From: an uncultured bacterium
GTDB lineage: Bacteria > Patescibacteriota > Minisyncoccia > Phycocordibacterales > DATDWN01
Assembly: GCA_903861205.1 (NCBI GenBank)
Contig: CAIOTC010000010.1
Coordinates: 1-35,703 of the forward strand
Direction: 5' to 3'
DNA length: 35,703 nucleotides
Shown one piece after another: positions 594-31,132 of this stretch. A program made the position numbers and the translations under genes. Each line of letters opens with the position of its first letter. Within the stretch, counting starts at the first letter, position 1. The notes below the pieces were generated by a model. It saw only the letters and a list, made by a program, of their open reading frames with translations. It was not told the DNA's origin and did no database searches.

Positions 594-624
594 GTGGGAA
601 GATTAGCATAAAATAGCTGACGAC

Positions 625-798
625 GCAAATTCAGTTCCGGCATTCATTTCCGGATACATTCACCCGTCCAGCGACGGGTTCATTCCTGTCCTCGGCCTTG
701 ATTTGTCAATGAGCCCCGTCCCAAAAGGCGGGGTCGTTGACAAAACCATGCTCAAGGCCTGCGGAGTCTCCGTAAATGAATGCCGGAACTGAATTTGC
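625..798. repeat. 174-bp nested inverted-repeat element upstream of rpsF
   Basis: Terminal arms gcaaattcagttccggcattcatttcc (625-651) and gtaaatgaatgccggaactgaatttgc region (772-798) are 27 bp with about one mismatch; inner stems ggccttga/tcaaggcc and gtcaa..gccccg/cgggg..ttgac. Confidence 0.85.
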
Positions 799-903
799 TA
801 AGTGGTGATGTCGAAAATTTTTTCTCACTTGATGTCAACGGCGAAGCAACGTGGTCACCAAGTGTGGAAAATTTTTTCCACCATGACCAATTTTTTGCAA
901 AAG

Positions 904-10503: not shown

Positions 10504-10650
10504 TTCAATTCAAAATTTCTTACGATGAATTTCTTGTGTCATCCCCGCGCAGGCGGGGATCCAGTTCAAACTCTAGATTCCCGCATTCGCGGGAATGACA
10601 ACTAATGCGCCGGAAAAGTGTTGCCTCGACGAAATTTATGAATTTCCAAT
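10504..10650. repeat. Composite repeat: nested-palindrome element interrupted by a dRS3-like element
   Basis: aaatttcttacgat (10513-10526) and aatgcgccggaaaag...ctcgacgaaattt (10604-10637) match 27608-27621 and 27695-27728; between them tgtcatccccgcgcaggcggggatc...attcccgcattcgcgggaatgaca. Confidence 0.7.
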
Positions 10651-24366: not shown

Positions 24367-24375
24367 TAAATAAAA

Positions 24376-24414
24376 AAACATTCCCCAGGGTGTCACCTTG
24401 GGGAATGTTTTTTT
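24376..24414 (+). terminator. Terminator after rplK, possibly bidirectional
   Basis: aaacattccccaggg...ccttggggaatgttt followed by tttttt; A-run on the left flank. Confidence 0.8.
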
Positions 24415-24420
24415 GTTTAA

Positions 24421-25293: not shown

Positions 25294-25328
25294 AAAAATT
25301 TTGGTTAAAAAATTTTGATAAAATAAAT

Positions 25329-25457
25329 TTGAAATCTCTTATTAACCAAAGCAACTTTGGAGCACGCGTAAATTTTCTGCTGAAAATTTCGCTCACTCTC
25401 CGCTCGCCAGCGTCCGAGAGTCTCCAAAATTGCTTCGGCTAAACAAGATTTCAAGTT
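25329..25457. repeat. Long imperfect nested palindrome (intergenic element)
   Basis: Outer arms ttgaaatctcttattaaccaaagcaactttggag versus the reverse complement of ctccaaaattgcttcggctaaacaagatttcaa; inner aaattttctgctgaaaattt. Confidence 0.75.
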
Positions 25458-25472
25458 TATTTTAGCATATTT

Positions 25473-27598: not shown

Positions 27599-27737
27599 TT
27601 AAATTGTAAATTTCTTACGATCCAACACTTTTCCGTCGCCAGAATAATTTTCTGCTGAAAATTTTCTTCCTGCTCGCCTCTTCACGGGCTCCGCAATGCG
27701 CCGGAAAAGCGTCGGCTCGACGAAATTTCCAATTTAC
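27599..27737. repeat. Long imperfect nested palindrome (intergenic element, uninterrupted copy)
   Basis: taaattgtaaatttcttacgatccaacacttttccgtcgc pairs with gcgccggaaaagcgtcggctcgacgaaatttccaattta; inner aattttctgctgaaaatttt. Confidence 0.75.
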
Positions 27738-28964: not shown

Positions 28965-29030
28965 GTGATAATTGTAACATATTTAAGCATCGTTGTTAAA
29001 ACTTTCATAATTTCGCCAAGGTCGCGTATA

Positions 29031-29088
29031 AAATAAAAAACCAAACTGGAGGCGTACAAGTGTACGATGACAGTTTGGTTTTTTATTT
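29031..29088 (-). terminator. Strong terminator, 18-bp arms, downstream of the GH18-like gene
   Basis: aaataaaaaaccaaactg / cagtttggttttttattt perfect arms with inner cgtac aagt gtacg. Confidence 0.8.
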
Positions 29089-29123
29089 TAGACGATGAGA
29101 TTGGTGAAATTTGGAAGTTTTTA

Positions 29124-30922: not shown

Positions 30923-31002
30923 GGAAGTTTGAAAATAAAATCTCTTACTCGTCATTTTCTTTTTTGTCGCCACTCGCTCTCTCCTGCGGAGAGCTCGTTC
31001 TC

Positions 31003-31079
31003 GTCCTCGGCCTGAACTTGTCAATGAGCCCCGCCCAAAAAGCGGGGTCGTTGACAAGTCCAAGCTTCAGGCCTGCGGA
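31003..31079. repeat. Second copy of the nested hairpin found at 688-765
   Basis: gtcctcggcctgaacttgtcaatgagccccgcccaaaaagcggggtcgttgacaagtccaagcttcaggcctgcgga. Confidence 0.85.
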
Positions 31080-31132
31080 TGCGCCAAAAAGGAAAATGCC
31101 GCGACGAGATTTTAATTTCAAACGCAAATTCA

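Follow-up and report, generated by a model that had tools for sequence, protein, structure and literature searches.

Two large hairpins, at 688-765 and 31003-31079, lie far apart in a stretch of 35,703 nucleotides from an uncultured patescibacterial genome (the window hereafter). What are they, and how do their arms stay paired where their sequences differ? A preliminary description had read them as copies of a nested hairpin with compensatory stem changes. Its coordinates and sequences for both copies are correct, and the change of the outer stem from GGCCTTGA/TCAAGGCC to GGCCTGAA/TTCAGGCC is real. The hairpins are real too, and incomplete, each being the innermost helix (P3) of a larger unit at 620-803 or 30936-31114. 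These units fold at -102.3 kcal/mol (shuffled mean -47.4, z = -13.9) and -83.1 kcal/mol (shuffled mean -46.1, z = -8.7) respectively, which is not chance. Both hairpins belong to copies of a mobile DNA element, apparently undescribed, of about 180 nt with a three-way-junction fold: the arms of the long outer stem (P1) flank two inner parts, the small hairpin P2 and then P3, whose bulge is constant. The order is 5' P1, P2, P3, 3' P1 in all complete copies inspected. The features of the window are as follows, with '+' the consensus orientation as read in the preliminary description; the strand that we infer to fold is '-'.

620..803, +, whole element, copy 1, a three-way junction (RNAfold helices, z = -13.9)
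620..657, +, 5' arm of P1, copy 1, copy-specific outer stem (GCAAATTCAGTTCCGGCATTCATTTCCGGA at 625-654; RNAfold helix)
662..679, +, P2 hairpin, copy 1 (ACCCGTC / GACGGGT, loop CAGC; RNAfold helix)
689..765, +, P3, copy 1, the hairpin first described (RNAfold helices)
766..798, +, 3' arm of P1, copy 1 (inverted repeat, RNAfold helix)
799..808, +, 3' tail, copy 1, TAAGTGGTGA, a form of the TTAGTGGTGA motif
10507..10644, +, probable remnant (P1 ends AAAATTTCTTACGA / TCGACGAAATTT; fold)
25323..25460, +, probable related element of a short-P3 subfamily (fold; P1 end motif GAAATCTCTTA ... CAAGATTTC)
27604..27732, +, related element of the short-P3 subfamily, a three-way junction (helices; weak structure-model match)
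30936..31114, +, whole element, copy 2 (z = -8.7; structure model)
30976..30994, +, P2 hairpin, copy 2 (GCTCTCT / GGAGAGC; RNAfold helix)
31003..31080, +, P3, copy 2 (basal helix 31003-31015/31067-31080, bulge TCCAAGC at 31060-31066)

The structure model matches copy 1 at 631-791 (144.8 bits) and copy 2 at 30944-31105 (143.7 bits). P1 of copy 1 is an inverted repeat (625-657/766-798, complementarity 94%) that pairs, as folded, from 620-657 to 766-803. Its P3 consists of a basal helix (689-701/752-765), a 7-nt bulge (ACCATGC, 745-751) and a distal helix (702-720/727-744) with a bulged A at 712. In copy 2, P1 comprises two parts (30936-30944/31106-31114 and 30949-30970/31081-31104) separated by an internal loop, and the distal helix of P3 is 31016-31034/31042-31059. 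The TTAGTGGTGA motif adjoins P1 in part of the copies (AGTG at most 14 nt away in 23/124, about 3.6 expected).

The window holds further structures of this kind. The two short-P3 elements have three-way junctions and the same P1 end motifs, and their subfamily is mostly missed by our models: the structure model matches 27604-27732 weakly (27614-27722, E = 1.4e-4) and gives no match to 25323-25460. At 10507-10644, element-like P1 ends enclose a palindrome pair, GTCATCCCCGC/GATTCCCGC, and this is probably one repeat inserted into another. Two intergenic terminator-like hairpins, at 24367-24419 and 29025-29094, are very long and almost perfect (arms of 26 and 34 bp).

A DNA search found the 77-nt core about 20 times in this genome, which belongs to Parcubacteria related to Zambryskibacteria and carries about 22-23 copies of the element. 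The sequence model, built from an alignment of 30 copies, gives 23 matches here, including two at contig ends that are probably one copy. Both contigs concerned (G000:C15 and G000:C16) stop inside an element and seem to overlap, and the assembly break between them probably falls at that copy. Genomes of the same family have from 0 to 27 model matches each, with matches in 25 of 61 relatives, and the whole-structure model finds the element in 50 of 397 genomes of the order and 37 of 179 genera; all these genomes are drafts, one per species, and genes around the loci were called as simple ORF picks. An exact pattern run against a large genome collection matched solely in Parcubacteria/Zambryskibacteria. 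Viral contigs gave no exact core match, Rfam 15 no match near the curated (gathering) score, and the open literature, subscription papers and preprints being outside its scope, no description of the element. A second repeat (AAGGTCTGGCCTTGGGAAATTGG...) is found at the tip of P3 in two copies, L017 (G000:C17:37958-38177) and L026 (G000:C20:132686-132906), and also alone beside a third locus (L002).

That the element is mobile, as the preliminary description proposed, is borne out on an evolutionary time scale by comparison between species. Several sites, including those at fusA, rpoC, dnaE, a comM-like gene and mreB (genes identified by recognisable sequence rather than through a database), are used in more than one species, and several of these same-site pairs have the element in opposite orientation. 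Identity of P3 at the same site ranges from 0.56 to 0.78 between species, no better than the mean of 0.70 for random between-genome pairs, and the best relatives of these copies are at other, unrelated sites (P3 identity 0.78-0.98). For 49 of 107 copies, where 12.6 would be expected, the closest relative is another copy in the same genome. Copies at shared sites are therefore mostly separate arrivals, and vertical inheritance of orthologous copies is ruled out by the P3 identities; the mreB site of genomes G012 and G014, where the 5' arms agree over roughly their first 30 bases, may be an exception. In other species, the fusA and mreB sites are either without an element or occupied by an ordinary terminator, by a remnant or by a large hairpin of a different family. 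No true empty site was seen in our comparison set of one genome per species. Large branched palindromes of at least two other families (CTCGGGTCTTTTTCACGA... at L207, L246 and L254; CAAATCTGGCGAACTCCTCG... at L209, L248 and L250) sit directly 3' of fusA and mreB stop codons in related species.

Does the pairing of the arms reflect their structure? Across 108 copies, the covariation score is 0.518, against 0.157 +/- 0.004 for shuffled and at most 0.135 for slid alignments, and 89.8% of pair cells are paired, against 68.0% shuffled and at most 49.6% slid; these counts lean toward the structure to which the alignment was fitted, the margin being large, and are not counts of independent events, the copies being related by descent. 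In the same 108 copies, both partners vary at 48 of 55 pairs, so that pairing is indeed kept through paired substitutions, and unpaired drift in the arms is confined to a minority of copies (P1 is broken in a few, such as G000:C20:125186 and G007:C5:20136). Other parts hardly vary in the family: the P2 loop is nearly invariant (CNGC), P3 has its 7-nt bulge and a constant GTCAA/TTGAC stem, and the outer P1 stem ends in the consensus AAATYTC/GARATTT. The outer and inner stems of P1 are separated by unpaired positions in roughly half of the copies.

The mismatches that do occur point to the strand that folds. We counted isolated P1 mismatches, with three good pairs to either side, on the strand of the preliminary description: 62 were A.C and 15 were G.T (p = 6e-8), or 46 and 14 when each context is counted once (p = 4e-5). 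This excess is present in every gene context and most genomes, and also in the model alignment (81 A.C, 19 G.T), whose bias, if any, is toward G.U. On the complement strand, A.C mismatches in P1 become G.U pairs, and that strand is the more stable in 100 of 124 copies. The folding strand is therefore probably the complement of the one first read. The asymmetry is strong in inner P1 only, weak in P3 and absent from P2, and outer P1 has 11 mismatches of either kind; inner P1 is thus constrained as a complement-strand fold, and other processes may govern the drift of outer P1. Pure copying of one arm from the other does not predict such an asymmetry, which instead indicates constraint on one folded strand.

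Elements also have a preferred position relative to genes. Most (81/126) lie 3' of a co-directional gene, with the distance from its stop codon to the start of the model match having quartiles of 5-17 nt, while stops facing the other end of the element are 14-130 nt away (quartiles). As mere avoidance of genes would not give this difference between the ends, the elements have a preference for stop codons. The two copies in the window show another arrangement, being antisense to both neighbours. Three further ideas were set aside. Replication-strand bias is too weak to use ('+' strand G-rich in 30/43 convergent or divergent settings). That elements as a general rule insert into loops of native terminators, whose stem would then be P1, is rejected, as native hairpins seldom have the P1 foot AAATYTC/GARATTT (3/89); at fusA of G007, moreover, a terminator-like hairpin lies beyond the element. 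Intrinsic termination by P1 was discarded, a run of at least 6 T following P1 in only 5 of 124 copies.

We consider it fairly probable that these are non-autonomous mobile elements of Parcubacteria (Zambryskibacteria and scattered relatives) whose recognition occurs in trans, on a single strand that folds into a three-way junction and is the complement of the strand first read. The folded form would then be single-stranded DNA rather than RNA, and the enzyme acting in trans a recombinase. The likely recognition part would be P3, with its constant bulges and GTCAA/TTGAC stem; P1 would be held for its pairing and not for its sequence. Insertion would be mostly intergenic, one end often falling on the stop codon of a gene in the same direction, and stem pairing would be kept by selection on the fold, with help from arm-to-arm copying and from modules being exchanged among copies. 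One observation counts against the DNA part of this reading: tolerance of G.U is more typical of RNA.

The elements could instead be a structured RNA family, with the complement strand transcribed as a regulatory RNA, a 3'-end protector or a terminator, and with spread to new sites being secondary. Wobble tolerance on one strand, deep covariation and the location at gene ends all agree with this. In the commonest arrangement, however, the folding strand is antisense to the gene that the element abuts (51 '++' against 28 '--'), and the flanks beyond P1 show, in their composition, no sequence common to most copies that might serve the element as a promoter of its own. The scarcity of T runs after P1 makes ordinary intrinsic termination unlikely, the position of copies is not conserved between species, and the lack of an Rfam match near the curated score also speaks against an RNA family. 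We regard this explanation as possible, if unlikely.

The arms of P1 differ from copy to copy. In pairs of copies whose P3 identity averages 96%, identity falls to 0.75 in P2, 0.68 in inner P1 and 0.56 in outer P1, the last being close to the value for unrelated pairs (0.54). Each arm nonetheless fits its own partner: the median P1 duplex is -37 kcal/mol within elements and -16 kcal/mol across elements. Pairing continues into the flanks outside the conserved foot (mean 3.9 bp, 0.94 by chance; at least 5 bp in 16/57 copies, 1.1 expected), and in some copies the paired flank takes in the end of the adjacent gene. Among young copies with P3 98% alike, some have the same inner P1 but outermost pairs that are different, in both arms. 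Two readings remain for these self-paired, copy-specific arms: a short palindrome at the site led to its being chosen, or one arm is a copy of the other. Modules are also mixed between copies within this genome. The P3 of 31003-31079 is identical (76/76) to that of a copy at C16:18887, which has a different P2 and P1, and the P2 type of the latter recurs with another P3 in the same genome.

Could mutation alone account for the pairing? Quasipalindrome correction, in which template switching during replication homogenises the arms of long inverted repeats, is a known process (e.g. PMC7202029 and PMC8604942) and would need no selection on the fold. The many perfect copy-specific P1 arms (such as 29-31 pairs without mismatch) and the paired flanks are what it would produce. 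It predicts equal numbers of A.C and G.T mismatches, however, and inner P1 has 62:15; it should erase the constant bulges and the internal loop, which are kept in most copies; and it leaves the spread to new sites unexplained. As the whole explanation it is improbable, yet outer P1, with its 11:11 mismatches, may well evolve by this kind of arm homogenisation. The preliminary description had offered selection on the structure and gene-conversion-like homogenisation of the arms as alternatives. Both probably act, the A.C excess in inner P1 marking the constraint on one strand, and the copy-specific, often perfect outer arms with their paired flanks resembling arm copying or adoption of the flank.

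If the elements are mobilised in trans, which enzyme might do so? Four protein families were checked, and neither a mobilising enzyme among them nor an autonomous copy of the element was found. Reverse transcriptases and serine resolvases are rejected as necessary partners, since several genomes that carry elements lack them. A Xer-like tyrosine recombinase (PF00589), mostly one protein per genome, is encoded in 21 of the 22 element-bearing genomes searched, the exception being an incomplete genome; genomes without elements also carry this protein, so that its presence is compatible with a role and is not evidence for one. A single-strand recombination of a non-integron kind, in which the cell's own Xer-like recombinase acts on bottom-strand hairpins and the outermost arms adopt the sequence of each new site, all in bacteria whose genomes are very small, seems to us quite improbable as the full account.

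Movement of the element as a REP/REPIN-type repeat by a TnpA_REP (Y1, RAYT) transposase, a family to which the preliminary description had pointed, is not supported and is highly improbable, for although the palindromes are small and intergenic and this genome has several Y1 genes, no element (E < 1) lies at any of 33 Y1 loci, intact Y1 genes that were recognised are typically flanked by short palindromes of their own, three genomes that are 97-99% complete (G002, G006, G047) have 7-13 copies each and no Y1, and GTAG/GTGG is absent just 5' of the foot of P2 and P3 on either strand (0/79), occurring at P1 in 2-5 of 124. Among the Y1 loci (L271-L294), many genes have palindromes on both sides that are different for each; one locus (L279) has the palindrome ACTTGGAAACGCCGTTTCCAAGT downstream of its Y1 gene.

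The elements are apparently an undescribed mobile family in a large and barely cultivated bacterial group, whose genomes are thought to be stripped down and yet in many cases carry about 5-27 copies. The family is also a clear natural case in which the paired substitutions of a palindrome can be separated into those due to selection on one folded strand and those due to copying between arms, and the comparison of A.C with G.T mismatches by which this is done can be applied to any palindromic repeat family. Should the folded strand be DNA, the family would add an example, outside integrons and IS200/IS605, of mobile DNA that is recognised in folded single-stranded form.

Several known systems invite comparison. 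Like MITEs, the elements are small and non-autonomous and have terminal inverted repeats, but their terminal arms differ from copy to copy while being complementary within each copy, and no gene-bearing or autonomous relative with the same ends was found, contrary to the MITE pattern. GTAG-REPs and REPINs are likewise non-autonomous, intergenic, palindromic and present in many copies, many of them at the 3' ends of genes (PMC3733652, PMC3116915). They are hairpins of 20-65 nt or doublets of these, however, whereas the element is a three-way junction of about 180 nt with neither a GTAG tag nor a Y1 association. CGTC-REPs share with the element the lack of a known transposase, and C/TGTC precedes P3 in 29 of 79 copies (a CGTC-type tag is found at P2 in only 2/79). 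They have stems of 8-9 bp, loops of 4-5 nt and mostly a CCA tail (PMC3733652), as opposed to stems of 20-30 bp in a branched fold with P3 as a long bulged helix. The element belongs to neither of these REP classes.

Integron attC sites (PMC2727003) offer the closest parallel. They differ from the element in having AAC...GTT R'' and R' boxes at their borders, where the element ends in AAATYTC ... GARATTT, and in standing in cassette arrays, where the element occurs as single dispersed copies behind housekeeping genes; the sequence of P3, too, is strongly conserved, unlike in attC. No cassette array was seen among 126 element loci, and no IntI was identified. With boxes and arrays absent, we do not class the elements as attC sites. 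Both, on the other hand, have an outer stem that is little conserved in sequence and strongly paired, an internal loop without pairing that sets this stem apart from the inner one, bases that bulge out of the helix, and branching at the terminal end. These are represented here by the loop in about half of the copies, the bulged A, the 7-nt bulge, and P2 with P3. Both are found directly after a stop codon, in the orientation of the gene. Only the bottom strand of attC folds, and the A.C excess and greater stability of the complement in our sequences would point the same way. By anatomy and by strand, the elements may thus work somewhat like attC sites, which they resemble most among the systems compared here.
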